Below are positions 44,694-49,179 of a DNA stretch of 64,000 nt, in pieces. The stretch covers positions 62,001 to 126,000 of the forward strand of contig CALHUI010000006.1 of the NCBI GenBank assembly GCA_938039675.1, written 5' to 3'. Each line of letters starts with the position of its first letter. Within the stretch, counting starts at the first letter, position 1. A model generated the notes under the pieces. That model had not been told where the DNA came from, did no database searches, and was given only the letters and a program-made list of their open reading frames with translations. This DNA is from an uncultured Cytophagales bacterium (lineage in GTDB: Bacteria > Bacteroidota > Bacteroidia > Cytophagales > Thermoflexibacteraceae). A program made the translations under genes and the position numbers.

Positions 44694-44723
44694 TTGATAT
44701 ATGAAAATATATTTATATATTTG
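44694..44723 (+). promoter_or_regulatory. arsR promoter with 17-bp operator-like motif
   Basis: A -33 TTG (44694-44696) and a perfect -7 box TATATTTG (44716-44723), 19 bp apart, lie 23 bp before the arsR ATG. The spacer is filled by TATATGAAAATATATTT (44698-44714). The same motif, with one or two changes, appears at 46648-46664 and 48692-48708. A repressor bound there would block the promoter, so autoregulation by ArsR is likely but inferred. Confidence 0.55.
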
Positions 44724-44746
44724 CATTGTTATTCACTTACACGGTT

Positions 44747-45058
44747 ATGGAGATAGAAACGATTGCGTTGCGAATTGATACAAAAAAATTGGAACGGGCT
44801 GCTTTTGTGCTAAAGGCTGTGGCGCATCCGGTACGTATTGCGATTATAGATTTATTAGACCAGTGTGGCCGCCTAAATGTGAGCGAGTTGCAAAATAAGT
44901 TAGACATAGAGCAGGCTTTGTTGTCGCACCATCTGACTAACATGCGCGACCGCGGCATCCTCAGTGCTGAGCGCGAAGGTAAATGTATTTACTACTCACT
45001 AATCGATACAACAATCACCAATATTATTCACTGTATCAACAGTTGTACACGATTTTAA
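44747..45058 (+). CDS. ArsR/SmtB-family transcriptional repressor, probable sulfide-responsive type
   Basis: 103 residues from the ATG at 44747, a winged-helix regulator with Ala-His-Pro-Val-Arg-Ile-Ala-Ile-Ile-Asp-Leu-Leu near 26-37 and the recognition helix Gln-Ala-Leu-Leu-Ser-His-His-Leu-Thr-Asn-Met-Arg near 56-67. The wing Gly-Lys-Cys-Ile-Tyr-Tyr-Ser-Leu is near 78-85. The metal motif of arsenic sensors (Cys-x-Cys in helix 3) is absent. Four cysteines remain: C40, C80, C96 and C100. Known persulfide-sensing ArsR proteins (SqrR, BigR) use a Cys pair that forms a tetrasulfide bridge, and the neighbours here are sulfide genes, so I infer a sulfide or persulfide sensor. The signal is not proven. 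Confidence 0.8.
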   Translation: MEIETIALRIDTKKLERAAFVLKAVAHPVRIAIIDLLDQCGRLNVSELQNKLDIEQALLSHHLTNMRDRGILSAEREGKCIYYSLIDTTITNIIHCINSCTRF

Positions 45059-45071
45059 TTATCTGGAAAAC

Positions 45072-45083
45072 TGACGTAAGTCA
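45072..45083. promoter_or_regulatory. Putative CRP/FNR-family site upstream of the persulfide dioxygenase
   Basis: TGACGTAAGTCA with TGAC/GTCA arms, followed by a T-run, 75 bp before the start codon at 45158. It shares TGAC-n-TAA-n-TCA with the ccoG site at 12633-12644. A -7-like box TAATTTTA lies at 45113-45120. Suggests a second, redox-linked input to this gene, separate from ArsR. Confidence 0.4.
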
Positions 45084-45157
45084 TTTTTTAGCAGCTTCAA
45101 TTTTTTGACTTTTAATTTTAGTTGATAGTTGATTTATTTTTTTAAACTATACAAACC

Positions 45158-46552
45158 ATGAAAATCGAGCAATTGTACACAGGTTGTCTGGCTGAGGCAG
45201 CCTATTTTATCGAGTCAGCCGGCGAGGCTGCTGTGATTGACCCCATCCGTGAAACTGAGCCTTACATAAAGTTGGCACAGGAACGCGGTGTTAAAATCAA
45301 GTACATTTTTGAGACGCATTTCCATGCCGATTTCGTATCCGGCCACTTAGATTTGTCGCACGCCACAGGAGCACCTATTGTATTCGGCCCTACTGCGAAG
45401 GCACAGTTTGACTACATTGAAGCTAAAGACGGTGAAATTTTTGAAATAGGCGATGTTACACTGAAAGTGCTGCATACGCCCGGACATACGCCGGAATCCA
45501 TGTGTTTGCTGCTCTACGACGAAAACGGTAAGGAACATGCCGTATTTACAGGTGATACACTGTTTGTAGGTGATGTAGGTCGCCCTGACTTGCTGGACGG
45601 CGTTATTATCTCCAAAGAAGAGCAGGTAAGCAACCTGTACGATAGCTTGAACAAGAAAATCAAAACTTTGCCCGATGATGTAATTGTCTATCCCGGACAT
45701 GGCCCGGGTTCACTTTGCGGCAAAAGTATCGGCAAAGAAACTCAGTCCACCATTGGCAGAGAGAAAATGTTCAACTATGCGTTGCAACCGATGACGCGTG
45801 AAGAATTTACCCGAATTATTCTGGCAGACCAGTTGCCTGCACCTCAATACTTCGTTAAGAATGCCATCATTAACCGAACCGGTTATGAGTCAATCGATGA
45901 TGTGTTAGGTCGCAACGTACAGCCATTGGGCGTTACATCGGTAGAATTGGAAATAGAAACCGGTGCGTTGGTGTTAGACACCCGCAACTCCGACGTATTT
46001 GCAATAGGCCATATTCCTAATTCGCTACAAATAGGGCTGGATGGTTCTTTTGCCGTATGGGTCGGTACGCTCATTACCGATATCAAACAACGAATCGTAG
46101 TAGTCGCCGACAAAGGTCGTGAGCGCGAAGCCATTCTGCGTTTGGCACGCGTAGGCTACGAAAATGTCGCCGGCTATCTGGAAGGAGGTTTTGATTCATG
46201 GCGTGAGGCAGGTATGCCCGTTGCCACTACCGAAGTGATTACTGCCGAAGAATTAGAGCGAATTTTTGACGTTGCTACTACCAAAATTTTGGACGTGCGC
46301 CGTACCAACGAGTACAAAGCTGGTCATTTGCCCAATGCCATCAACATCCCGCTGCGCGACTTAGAAAAGAATCTGCACCAGTTGAACCCTAAGGAACGCT
46401 ACTTCGTACATTGTGCCGGAGGCTATCGCTCTATGATTGCGGCTTCTATTCTGGCTCGCAATGGCTATAACAAAGTGGTGAATGTGAATGGAGGCATGGA
46501 GGCTATTGCAAAAACTCAACTACCTGTTCTTACAGAAGCAAAAATAGCATAG
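45158..46552 (+). CDS. ETHE1-like persulfide dioxygenase with two rhodanese domains
   Basis: 464 residues. The N-terminal metallo-beta-lactamase domain (about 1-250) has H54-x-H56-x-D58 and H63 of the family, H110, D133 and H181, and the Gly-Asp-Val-Gly-Arg-Pro-Asp-Leu motif (138-145) of the ETHE1 group. Such enzymes oxidise glutathione or other persulfide to sulfite with O2. Two rhodanese domains follow: the first (about 265-350) lacks a catalytic Cys (Val-Val-Val-Ala-Asp-Lys-Gly-Arg), whereas the second (about 360-455) keeps it as C419 in His-Cys-Ala-Gly-Gly-Tyr-Arg-Ser. Together they could pass sulfane sulfur between carriers. It lies between arsR and the sulfide:quinone reductase and has its own terminator (46568-46602). 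Confidence 0.9.
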   Translation: MKIEQLYTGCLAEAAYFIESAGEAAVIDPIRETEPYIKLAQERGVKIKYIFETHFHADFVSGHLDLSHATGAPIVFGPTAKAQFDYIEAKDGEIFEIGDVTLKVLHTPGHTPESMCLLLYDENGKEHAVFTGDTLFVGDVGRPDLLDGVIISKEEQVSNLYDSLNKKIKTLPDDVIVYPGHGPGSLCGKSIGKETQSTIGREKMFNYALQPMTREEFTRIILADQLPAPQYFVKNAIINRTGYESIDDVLGRNVQPLGVTSVELEIETGALVLDTRNSDVFAIGHIPNSLQIGLDGSFAVWVGTLITDIKQRIVVVADKGREREAILRLARVGYENVAGYLEGGFDSWREAGMPVATTEVITAEELERIFDVATTKILDVRRTNEYKAGHLPNAINIPLRDLEKNLHQLNPKERYFVHCAGGYRSMIAASILARNGYNKVVNVNGGMEAIAKTQLPVLTEAKIA

Positions 46553-46567
46553 ACAGTAACCTAACTC

Positions 46568-46602
46568 AAACTAAGGCGGCTCTTGAAAAGCCGTCTTAGT
46601 TT
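46568..46602 (+). terminator. Terminator after the persulfide dioxygenase gene
   Basis: AAACTAAGGCGGCT (46568-46581) pairs with AGCCGTCTTAGTTT (46589-46602), 14 bases with one G-U pair, followed by T. This separates the transcript from the sulfide:quinone reductase gene. Confidence 0.8.
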
Positions 46603-46647
46603 TTTAAAAAAACATTTTTATATATAAATACGTGCAAAACATTTTTT

Positions 46648-46665
46648 TATATGTGAATATATTTG
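46648..46665 (+). promoter_or_regulatory. Operator-like motif and -7 box before the sulfide:quinone reductase
   Basis: TATATGTGAATATATTT (46648-46664) matches the arsR promoter motif at 15 of 17 bases; the -7 box TATATTTG (46658-46665) overlaps its right end. The start codon is 37 bp downstream. No clear -33 element. Confidence 0.5.
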
Positions 46666-46701
46666 TACATTGAGGCAAACTTAGTAACATGTAATTTTAA
46701 T

Positions 46702-47916
46702 ATGAAAACTAACCTCAAATCGCATTATCAGGTATTAATTGCCGGCGGAGGCAATGGAGGAATATCGGTGGCTGCACAGCTATTGCGCAAACAGTCTAAT
46801 TTAGATATTGCTATTGTAGAGCCTTCCGATAAACACTATTACCAGCCTGCATGGACGCTTGTAGGCGGGGGAGACTATGATATTAATGATACAGTCCGCA
46901 ATGAAGCTGATTTTATTCCCAAAAATGCGACATGGATAAAAGATAAGGTTGCACAATTTTTACCGGATGAAAACAAGGTTATATTGGCAGGTGGCGATGC
47001 AGTTACTTACGACTGGTTAGTAATTGCTATCGGAATACAACTCAATTGGTCAGCCATTAAAGGGCTAGAAGGAAACTTAGGTAAAAACGGCATTACCTCC
47101 AATTATTTGTTCAATGTGGCTCCTTATACATTTGAATGTATCAAAAACTTTAAAGGCGGAAAAGCGATTTTTACCAATCCAAGCACACCTATCAAGTGTG
47201 GAGGGGCGCCTCAAAAAATTATGTACTTGGCTGCCGATTATTTCCGCAAGCATGGTATATTAGATAAGGCAGATATTCATTACTACTCCGGCAGCGCTGT
47301 GATTTTCGGAGTAAAAAAATATGCTGAAACACTTAACAAAGTTATTCAGCGATACGGCATCAAAACGCACTTCAAGCACAATTTGGTAGAGATTCGCGCC
47401 AATGAGAAGAAAGCGATTTTTGAAACCGAGCAAGACGGACAAAAAGTGCAAGTAGTTGAAAACTACGAGTTTATACATGTAACTCCACCACAGTCTGCAC
47501 CCGATGTAGTTCGTACAAGCCCGTTAGCAGTACCTGACTCACCAGGAGGATGGCTGGATGTAGACAAAGGTACTTTGAGGCACAACCGATACAAAAACGT
47601 ATTCGGAATTGGCGATAATACAAGCACGCCCAATGCCAAAACAGGTGCCGCCATTCGCAAACAAGCCCCTGTTTTGGTTGAAAATTTATACCGTAGTATC
47701 ACAGGGCAACAAATGGATGCCATGTACAACGGTTATGGCTCCTGTCCGCTAGTTACAGGCTATGGCAAATTAGTGCTGGCAGAGTTTGACTACAACAACG
47801 AGCCTATTGAAACGTTTCCTTTTGACCAAAGAAAAGAACGCTGGACAATGTATCAACTCAAAAAACGTATATTGCCGTGGCTGTACTGGAATAAAATCCT
47901 AAAAGGAACAGCTTAA
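46702..47916 (+). CDS. sqr: Sulfide:quinone oxidoreductase, type II (SQOR-like)
   Basis: Membrane-associated FAD enzyme that oxidises sulfide and passes electrons to quinone, leaving a persulfide. I take the ATG at 46702 (404 residues); the TTG at 46663 overlaps the operator-like motif. Seen: the FAD motif Gly-Gly-Gly-Asn-Gly-Gly near 15-20, Gln-Pro-Ala-Trp-Thr-Leu-Val-Gly-Gly-Gly near 48-57, and the two redox cysteines C166 (Ser-Thr-Pro-Ile-Lys-Cys-Gly-Gly-Ala-Pro-Gln-Lys) and C348 (Ser-Cys-Pro-Leu-Val-Thr-Gly-Tyr-Gly). This matches type II SQR, the form in mitochondria, with no third cysteine as in type I. Its persulfide product fits the upstream dioxygenase. A C-terminal amphipathic end (Leu-Pro-Trp-Leu-Tyr-Trp) could bind the membrane. 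Confidence 0.94.
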   Translation: MKTNLKSHYQVLIAGGGNGGISVAAQLLRKQSNLDIAIVEPSDKHYYQPAWTLVGGGDYDINDTVRNEADFIPKNATWIKDKVAQFLPDENKVILAGGDAVTYDWLVIAIGIQLNWSAIKGLEGNLGKNGITSNYLFNVAPYTFECIKNFKGGKAIFTNPSTPIKCGGAPQKIMYLAADYFRKHGILDKADIHYYSGSAVIFGVKKYAETLNKVIQRYGIKTHFKHNLVEIRANEKKAIFETEQDGQKVQVVENYEFIHVTPPQSAPDVVRTSPLAVPDSPGGWLDVDKGTLRHNRYKNVFGIGDNTSTPNAKTGAAIRKQAPVLVENLYRSITGQQMDAMYNGYGSCPLVTGYGKLVLAEFDYNNEPIETFPFDQRKERWTMYQLKKRILPWLYWNKILKGTA

Positions 47917-47925
47917 TTTTTTGGT

Positions 47926-48117
47926 ATGTTAATCAAGTATAAAAAATGGTTGCTTGCCTCGATAGGTATTTTGGTAGGTGGCGTTGCCGGGTGGTCATTC
48001 TGGTACTATATCGGCTGTGAAAGCGGCACCTGCCCAATTACTTCCAACCCGTATCGCAGCATGGCATACGGTGCAGTGATGGGTTTGCTGTTGTTTTGGC
48101 CGGAGCGAAGCGAGTAA
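47926..48117 (+). CDS. DUF6132 small membrane protein
   Basis: 63 residues with two membrane helices (about 8-30 and 43-58), separated by Gly-Cys-Glu-Ser-Gly-Thr-Cys-Pro-Ile-Thr-Ser-Asn-Pro. I recognise this Cys-x-x-Gly-Thr-Cys-Pro-Ile-Thr loop as DUF6132 (YtxH-like glycine zipper look). The family often sits next to rhodanese, SQR or thioredoxin genes. Here it lies 9 bp after sqr and shares its terminator. The paired cysteines could carry sulfane sulfur, but that is an inference. Function unknown. Confidence 0.78.
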   Translation: MLIKYKKWLLASIGILVGGVAGWSFWYYIGCESGTCPITSNPYRSMAYGAVMGLLLFWPERSE

Positions 48118-48139
48118 AATGCCGCTATTTTATAATTGC

Positions 48140-48181
48140 AAAAAGACTTGATGTCTCTGAAAAGAGATATTAAGTCTTTTT
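48140..48181 (+). terminator. Strong terminator of the sqr-DUF6132 transcript
   Basis: AAAAAGACTTGATGTCTCT (48140-48158) pairs with its partner at 48163-48181 over 19 bases with two G-U type mismatches and a GAAA tetraloop; an AT-rich tail with six T follows. Confidence 0.85.
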
Positions 48182-48271
48182 ATTTTTTGTACAATGATAT
48201 TGTGCTTTTACACCTGCAAAAATTACTTGTGTGCTTTATCTATGCCTATCAGCAAAATATTTATACCATTT

Positions 48272-48616
48272 TTATTTGAGGTTTTTGAGCTGTTTGAGCA
48301 CTTTTTGAATAGACAACTGCATTTGCGTTAAAATAGTATCGGGCACTATGCTCTGCAATTGTGCATCAGCCCCTTAGCCTGACCTTTTTTGGTTAAATCA
48401 AATTTAAGAATTAAATTATTTCCTTTGATAACAGGTGTGCTGTATTCCTGCTGTCTTCCGGGTAGCGTTCCATAATAGAGAAGACCGTTGGTATTAACCG
48501 TTCCCACAGCAGAGTTGAGTAAATCAGCAAGGAATGACTCCCTCTTTAACATTCAATGCGATTTGATTCAGTTCTTTGCAGCTGGCGGCAAGCAAAGGGA
48601 GCGGAGACACAATCAA
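48272..48616 (-). pseudogene. Remnant of a small lipoprotein gene
   Basis: Three frames fit one protein. From about 48616 a leader with a lipobox-like Leu-Leu-Ala-Ala-Ser-Cys reads Lys-Glu-Leu-Asn-Gln; after a one-base shift near 48545 the frame runs from Ser-Phe-Leu-Ala-Asp-Leu-Leu-Asn to Lys-Phe-Asp-Leu-Thr-Lys-Lys-Gly; after a second shift near 48365 it ends Leu-Gln-Ser-Ile-Val-Pro-Asp-Thr then Leu-Lys-Asn-Leu-Lys and a stop at 48272-48274. Family not recognised. Two frameshifts in about 110 codons argue for decay. The start choice (TTG at 48616) is a guess. Confidence 0.4.
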
Positions 48617-48675
48617 CTTGTTTGCTCACAATTTAAACAAATTACCGAAATCTTGCATATGTGAAATAAAGTTGG

Positions 48676-48708
48676 TATTATTGAACATATTTATATGAAA
48701 ATATGTTT
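48676..48708 (+). promoter_or_regulatory. Promoter and operator-like inverted repeat at the DUF2490 relic
   Basis: A TTG (48653-48655) and TATTATTG (48676-48683), 20 bp apart, look like -33 and -7 boxes. Directly after them AACATATTT (48684-48692) and AAATATGTT (48699-48707) form a perfect nine-base inverted repeat with a six-base spacer. Within it TATATGAAAATATGTTT (48692-48708) matches the arsR motif at 16 of 17 bases. It may be a third ArsR site, left in front of a dead gene. Confidence 0.45.
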
Positions 48709-49179
48709 AAAATAAAGTTATACGCAACAGTCCTGACTATTTATTCTTTGCTGATTTTTTCACCTGCCTATGCACAATCGCATATTAACTGGTGGACGAG
48801 ATTATCAATTAAAATGACTGTTACCTCTGTTTTATTTACAGAGTTAGAAGGGCAGATTCGCCGTATAGATACGATGATATAGAGTGTAGTATTCTTGTAA
48901 AGTGTGTTGGTAATTTTATTACAATTTATATGTTTTTTACGATAAAAAAAGGAACATTAAAATCTCCTTTTTTTGTTATTTTTTTAAAAATATTGCCTCT
49001 AAATTTAAGAGTATCGTTAGACGGACGAATTGCTGTTGCACGTGTATGGGGTAACAGAGCATCAGTTATATGACTACAATCGTTTAATTTTCAATATTAA
49101 CTACAAGCCCAATCCACATTGGCGAATTGAATTGGGTTACATATATGCCAACCGATTATTGCGCAAACAAATGCAATAA
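48703..49179 (+). pseudogene. Relic of a DUF2490 outer-membrane-like protein
   Basis: A 59-codon frame from the ATG at 48703 has a signal peptide (ending Pro-Ala-Tyr-Ala-Gln) and Asn-Trp-Trp-Thr-Arg-Leu-Ser, then Glu-Leu-Glu-Gly-Gln-Ile-Arg-Arg, and stops at 48880. About 150 bp on, a separate frame gives Glu-His-Gln-Leu-Tyr-Asp-Tyr-Asn-Arg-Leu, Tyr-Lys-Pro-Asn-Pro-His-Trp-Arg-Ile-Glu-Leu-Gly-Tyr and stops at 49177-49179. Both match the start and end of DUF2490 (beta-barrel-like, about 220 residues). The middle is lost or scrambled by deletion, so the gene is dead. Confidence 0.6.

Follow-up and report, generated by a model that had tools for sequence, protein, structure and literature searches.

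CstR reportedly responds to reactive sulfur species. The described persulfide sensors of the ArsR type have two conserved cysteines (PMC12423496, PMC10451225, PMC5823870, and PMC9774590), a pair that they share between helices alpha2 and alpha5 (PMC10509353 and PMC12423496), and FisR controls SQR, PDO1, and TauE (PMC7315123), in each case according to the parts of the papers at hand. Here, we describe a gene for an ArsR-type repressor (arsR) and its putative operator in a stretch of 64,000 nucleotides, the window, from contig CALHUI010000006.1 of an uncultured Cytophagales bacterium (assembly GCA_938039675.1), where arsR is followed by genes for a PDO-type protein (pdo1) and a sulfide:quinone reductase-like protein (sqr) and by the remnant of a DUF2490 gene. 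An earlier note on this DNA had seen one 17-bp motif in front of arsR, sqr, and the DUF2490 gene (sites 1 to 3) and had proposed a sulfide-responsive regulon with autoregulation. Comparative genomics gives good support to such a predicted autoregulated sulfide regulon. We consider it quite probable that, as a whole, ArsR acts on a 24-bp dyad operator, represses its own gene, governs sulfide genes, and is released through C96 and C100; the starting points are a conserved operator, its link to arsR orthologs, its sulfur gene targets, and the cysteine pattern of the protein.

The three 17-mers are present exactly as described (44698-44714, 46648-46664, and 48692-48708), and nowhere else in the 3.28-Mb genome does the pattern match exactly, but at up to two mismatches it had 13 matches compared with 7 for the reversed pattern. 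Therefore, loose matches are mostly background and only close ones count. With up to two mismatches, the window contains 5 matches, compared with 0.13 expected from shuffled sequences, for a pattern that was itself derived from these sites. The 17-mer was rejected as the complete operator, since in the orthologs it makes up only the left two-thirds of a 24-bp dyad. Many arsR ortholog upstream regions in other genera contain the dyad ATACATGAA-N6-TTCATGTAT, and, as judged from these alignments, ArsR very probably binds a 24-bp dyad of the form 9-6-9 with the consensus ATAYATGAA-N6-TTCATRTAT. Housekeeping promoters of Bacteroidota consist of TTG, a spacer of about 19 to 21 nucleotides (nt), and TAnnTTTG. 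The arsR promoter fits this consensus (TTG at 44694, a spacer of 19, and TATATTTG at 44716), and site 1 indeed lies in the -33/-7 spacer, as had been noticed. The dyad begins directly after the TTG and extends into TATATTTG, so that it fills the spacer, and ArsR binding would therefore be expected to block RNA polymerase. In all four genomes of the genus set (the window genome and the congeners G006, G007, and G008), the 18-bp core TATTGATATATGAAAATA upstream of arsR is unchanged and its flanks diverge.

A palindromic profile was built from Pontibacter only (24 distinct sites from 32 loci, with L099 left out). Its top score in the window was 25.3, at 44697-44720, compared with null maxima in 100 Markov sequences of 64 kb that had a mean of 9.2, a 95th percentile of 12.7, and a highest value of 15.7. 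The three sites are not equivalent: site 1 stands at the top of the window, but the sqr site is weak in the window genome. A score of at least 12 was reached by 17 of 32 other ortholog upstream regions (null fraction, 0.0003), and 22 of the 32 had a P value of ≤0.005. Four of the 17 (L047, L048, L051, and L053) carry g79, the handle of the genus that holds Pontibacter, and L047 and L048 duplicate training upstream regions; outside g79, 13 of 28 reach 12. Near-duplicates occur among the ortholog upstream regions as well (L057 and L060; L058, L059, L061, and L062). The flanks of ArsR paralogs, which served as a control, reached 12 in 1 of 22 cases; this case (L024) lies at a contig end, could form the 5' portion of an ortholog that has L016 as its 3' portion, and was kept in the count. 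A second profile, R1, comprised 35 sites, including the four arsR sites of the genus, and ranked the arsR site first in all four genus genomes, with E values of 0.002 to 0.045. The best R1 match had an E value of ≤0.057 in 11 of 12 ArsR-bearing genomes but in only 1 of 12 ArsR-less genomes (those without an ArsR match at an E value of 1e-15; the 12 controls were chosen from 20 such genomes). This contrast is partly circular, because R1 contains training sites from every one of the 12 ArsR-bearing genomes tested and the cut was chosen afterward. An operator-like site scoring 21.6 lies across the start of an open reading frame (ORF) (L202, 1501-1524) in G025, which has a sqr homolog and no ArsR ortholog at an E value of 1e-15.

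Beyond arsR, the next R1 match in G006, G007, and G008 was the promoter of a second PDO-rhodanese gene (pdo2) on another contig. The gene is also present in the window genome (C4:62758-64113), where the 17-mer pattern with two mismatches matches C4:62670-62686, about 71 bp before the pdo2 start. The block is conserved in all four genus genomes and scored 20.1, 19.9, and 8.1 in the three congeners. Across the genus, the core pattern TATATGAANATATGTTT, itself derived from the arsR and DUF2490 sites, matched with no more than one mismatch at 13 places; 12 of these lie at one of the genes arsR, sqr, pdo2, and DUF2490, and the thirteenth is inside an ORF. When two mismatches were allowed, the pattern matched at 26 places and its reversed form at 22. 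This search also recovered the exact core at DUF2490 in G006, which had been missed by the R1 search. R1 was also run on eight further ArsR-bearing genomes. In G009, one site (22.8) lies before an unlinked sqr, whose protein is 72% identical, and a second (19.3) before a TauE/SafE exporter gene directly after arsR. A site with a score of 25.0 before a gene of the SulP sulfate permease family in G056 (L171, 1501-1524) suggests that sulfate or sulfite transport belongs to the regulon, and the highest of these scores, 29.0, was found in G201 before the gene for a large protein that looks exported and has no Pfam match (L161, 1500-1523). Several weaker matches in the eight genomes lie at or inside unrelated genes. 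The arsR upstream region of G201 is identical to that of Pontibacter fetidus (L077).

The ArsR protein belongs to the ArsR/SmtB family, with 34.8 bits for Pfam HTH_5 (cutoff, 22) and 75.2 bits for NF033788 (cutoff, 55). Its predicted structure has a mean predicted local distance difference test score of 94.4, places alpha2 at residues 28 to 40 and alpha5 at residues 88 to 99, and matches the fold of ArsR structures; mycobacterial SmtB (8qkf, Mycobacterium smegmatis) is closest by sequence and fold, with SqrR, NolR, and HlyU close behind. As the earlier note had read from the translation, the only cysteines are C40, C80, C96, and C100, and the Cys-x-Cys motif that classical arsenic-sensing ArsR proteins have in alpha3 is not present. 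Of these four, C96 and C100 are a widely conserved pair (29/32 and 28/32 orthologs, 2 of the 32 rows ending before position 100), but C40 and C80 are seldom found beyond the genus (6/32 and 4/32), and C96 and C100 are the sole cysteines in five rows. In the model, C96 lies within alpha5 and C100 just beyond it; the alpha5 cysteines of SqrR and BigR are C107 and C108, respectively, and the alignment with SqrR stops at residue 97, short of SqrR C107. We infer a putative dithiol sensor formed by C96 and C100 at alpha5. A search of the phylum at an E value of 1e-20 found the clade, patchily, in 18 of 296 genomes. Among 19 further relatives from this search, 10 end in C-x3-C, and 5 of these 10 have a pdo1 match within 1.5 kb. 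Another ArsR group, in seven genomes of the same class (L193 to L199), has "HKLRQ" in alpha2 and no C-terminal C-x3-C; a pdo1 match lies within 1.5 kb in five of the seven, without the 24-bp operator. Tentatively, and with confidence a little short of evenly balanced, we propose a clade of ArsR proteins in several classes of Bacteroidota that would sense sulfane sulfur by a C-x3-C dithiol placed solely where alpha5 ends, lacking the alpha2 cysteine regarded as the mark of persulfide-sensing ArsR proteins, and would in Cytophagales control PDO, SQR, rhodanese, TauE, SulP, and DUF2490 through a 24-bp CATGAA-N6-TTCATG operator.

In the mechanism that we envisage, ArsR sitting on the dyad in its own promoter would keep RNA polymerase out, which would amount to autorepression and to control of arsR-pdo1. 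Sites of varying strength may also give ArsR control of sqr, the unlinked pdo2, and, in this genus, probably DUF2490. The sulfane sulfur that SQR makes would most likely modify C96 and C100, located where helix alpha5 ends, and ArsR modified in this way would release the DNA and thereby switch on persulfide oxidation.

Several results weigh against this reading. Fifteen of the 32 ortholog upstream regions scored below 12, including those of L046 and L013, whose proteins are 70% and 62% identical; the operator is therefore not universal. The R1 genome searches scored 150 of about 2,000 candidates per genome, and the match in 1 of the 12 ArsR-less genomes has an E value of 0.018 and lies across an ORF start. 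With the Pontibacter profile, the sqr site in the window scored 3.9 and site 3 just 8.1, and the profile score of the pdo2 site of the window genome was just 5.2; against local base composition, the sqr upstream region had a score of -0.9 and a P value of 0.16, and 21 of 28 sqr upstream regions of the order had P values of >0.02. Finally, neither C96 nor C100 is present in L051 and L089, which nonetheless have kept a strong operator (22.5 and 21.7, respectively). Therefore, C96 and C100 are not essential in every lineage.

The low scores in the window invite the explanation that the dyad at arsR is real and sites 2 and 3 are unused, the sqr operator having been lost here and the DUF2490 block being a feature of the translation start. 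We regard this as unlikely, although it accounts for part of the data: 20 of the 24 positions are self-complementary at site 1, compared with 14 at site 3 and 10 at site 2, and neither site 2 nor site 3 is significant in the window. For sqr, site 2 does overlap a -7 box, as the earlier note said, with TATATTTG (46658-46665) inside the motif. The equivalent position scored 13.8, 8.7, and 10.4 in G006, G007, and G008 (P values of 0.005, 0.02, and 0.005, respectively), where it was second best in each 10-kb locus, and P values of ≤0.02 were found for 7 of the 28 sqr upstream regions of the order, the strongest being L217 and L219 from other genera (0 of 200 for both). These positions count against that explanation. 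In some members of the group, sqr is thus a predicted part of the regulon; in the window genome, its site is weak or decaying.

For site 3, the view of a translation start feature draws on the start codon: the site was said to lie in front of DUF2490, which is inexact, because it contains the ATG (48703-48705). The -7 box said to precede it was not found, as there is no exact TAnnTTTG between 48600 and 48720, upstream of DUF2490. The perfect nine-base inverted repeat was correctly seen (AACATATTT at 48684-48692 and AAATATGTT at 48699-48707); its arms have the orientation opposite to that of the operator, it lies over the DUF2490 start, and by eye the orthologous sequence of G006 has two mismatches in it. 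The right arm of the dyad is absent at site 3. On the other hand, the block TTTATATGAAnATATGTTT is equally placed at the DUF2490 starts, and the core matches exactly, in all four genus genomes, even in G008, although identity in its matching fragment is no more than 38%. The window retains the 5' end of DUF2490 and, by eye, scraps of the 3' end, and the intact proteins of G006, G007, and G008 have 242 to 247 amino acids (aa); in G006 a distance of 7.3 kb separates the gene from arsR, and in G007 and G008 the two are on different contigs. A mere coincidence with the start codon was dropped as an explanation, since three congeners in which DUF2490 is intact have the block as well. For the same reason, an operator left at a decayed member of the regulon, as had been suggested, is plausible; from the aligned starts, we read site 3 as a probable regulon site that has survived its gene. 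By eye, 48118-48700 resembles a contracted remnant of the gap of about 3.9 kb between DUF6132 and DUF2490 in G006 (L039, 5322-9254).

A different objection concerns the sensor. ArsR could be an ordinary sensor of the SqrR/BigR type with an alpha2-alpha5 pair made of C40 and either C96 or C100, which would suit the similar target genes, the presence of SqrR, HlyU, YgaV, and BigR among the close sequence or fold matches, and the position of C40, with which alpha2 ends in the model. However, in the alignments the alpha2 cysteine of SqrR (C41) and of YgaV falls on Asp35 of ArsR, and the 32 orthologs have Asp (24), Glu (4), Lys (3), or Ala (1) at this position and never Cys; residue 40 is Cys in only six of them, and the BigR equivalog model of NCBIfam gave 57.9 bits, which does not pass its cutoff of 155. 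We set the SqrR-type cysteine pair aside for lack of the alpha2 cysteine and judge this alternative improbable. Still less probable is that ArsR senses a metal or metalloid through C96 and C100 of alpha5 and that sulfide genes are targets since metals and sulfide co-occur. SmtB as the closest solved structure, the general metalloregulator model passed by the protein (NF033788), and the atypical As(III) sensors, which use three alpha5 cysteines in the part of PMC10509353 at hand, speak for a metal sensor, but just two cysteines are widely conserved here, and the targets named are sulfide or sulfane sulfur genes, no dedicated search for nearby metal or arsenic genes having been made. Chance likeness among AT-rich Bacteroidota promoters and start codon contexts would explain why loose matches are nearly as common as those of the reversed pattern in the window genome and the genus and why sites 2 and 3 score low, but it is extremely unlikely, given that site 1 is predicted by the profile of another genus and conserved in four genomes, that 12 of the 13 close core matches lie at four genes, and that a blind search led to a further PDO-type gene as the second target.

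The features of the locus are compiled in Table 1. We use the names PDO and SQR on the basis of domains and neighbors, from which the enzyme activities are likewise presumed: the best NCBIfam model for sqr, type III SQR, gave 231.7 bits (below its cutoff of 525), and the Blh model gave 57.8 bits on the PDO-type protein (below its cutoff of 625). The order arsR-pdo-sqr is kept in the three congeners. Of the 33 loci L073 to L105, which span about 12 kb each except for L084 and L099 with about 6.5 kb, 30 have a pdo1 match near arsR, mostly to the rhodanese part. The same holds for 17 of the 32 loci L010 to L016 and L046 to L070, for which only 1.5-kb flanks were available. Between arsR and pdo1 lies the sole TGAC-N4-GTCA of the window, TGACGTAAGTCA; G006 and G007 match it exactly, and G008 differs from it by one base. 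We take this dyad to resemble a CRP/FNR-type site, and through it pdo1 may have a second regulatory input. A sigma-70 scan of the region showed no excess (12 found versus 14.0 expected).

Table 1. Features of the arsR-pdo1-sqr locus, in positions of the window
Feature	Position	Strand	Remarks
-33 element TTG of arsR	44694-44696	+	19 nt before TATATTTG
Predicted ArsR operator, ATATATGAA-AATATA-TTTATATAT	44697-44720		24 bp; overlaps -7 box
-7 element TATATTTG of arsR	44716-44723	+	Exact TAnnTTTG match
arsR	44747-45058	+	Putative winged-helix repressor, 103 aa; ATG at 44747
Dyad TGACGTAAGTCA between arsR and pdo1	45072-45083		Conserved
pdo1, PDO-type protein	45158-46552	+	Pfam Lactamase_B (MBL fold) and two Rhodanese stretches
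Putative weak or degenerate operator in sqr promoter	46647-46670		Includes -7 element TATATTTG, 46658-46665
sqr, sulfide:quinone reductase-like	46702-47916	+	Pfam Pyr_redox_2
DUF6132 small protein	47926-48117	+	Domain match
Perfect 9-6-9 inverted repeat, AACATATTT/AAATATGTT	48684-48707		Arms 48684-48692 and 48699-48707
Operator-core-like block TATATGAAAATATGTTT	48692-48708	+	Spans start codon of DUF2490 remnant
DUF2490 gene, 5' remnant	48703-48880	+	Signal peptide (by eye) and about 30 residues

If the proposal holds, the ArsR fold would offer a second chemical solution, realized in a sulfide-linked clade that does without the alpha2 cysteine. With the operator, part of the sulfide regulation of Cytophagales would become predictable from sequence, the varying strength of the operator suggests a sequence in which the genes are turned on, and a regulatory context is proposed for DUF2490. 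In the titles and abstract openings of open-license papers, we found no literature on this ArsR clade or operator in Bacteroidota. The protein resembles SqrR (Rhodobacter capsulatus), BigR (Xylella and Acinetobacter), YgaV, HlyU, and SoxR-sHdrR in its ArsR fold (template modeling score of 0.78 with SqrR, 6o8o) and in its putative sulfide gene targets. Like BigR, which covers the -10 region of its operon in the part of PMC5823870 at hand, it would cover a core promoter element. Unlike the SqrR/BigR group, it has Asp35 in alpha2 and conserved C96 and C100 at the end of alpha5, and its operator core CATGAA-N6-TTCATG is, by eye, unlike the HlyU site TAATTCAGACTAAATTA given in the portion of PMC4330345 available to us. 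The response to reactive sulfur species proposed here would be shared with CstR (PMC9774590, in part) and FisR, but CstR is of the CsoR type and FisR is a sigma-54 activator, and both are from unrelated protein families. The atypical As(III) sensors of sequence similarity network cluster 5 (PMC10509353, as far as the part at hand goes) likewise have their ligand cysteines in alpha5, but there are three in those sensors and two in the ArsR described here, whose predicted targets are sulfur genes.

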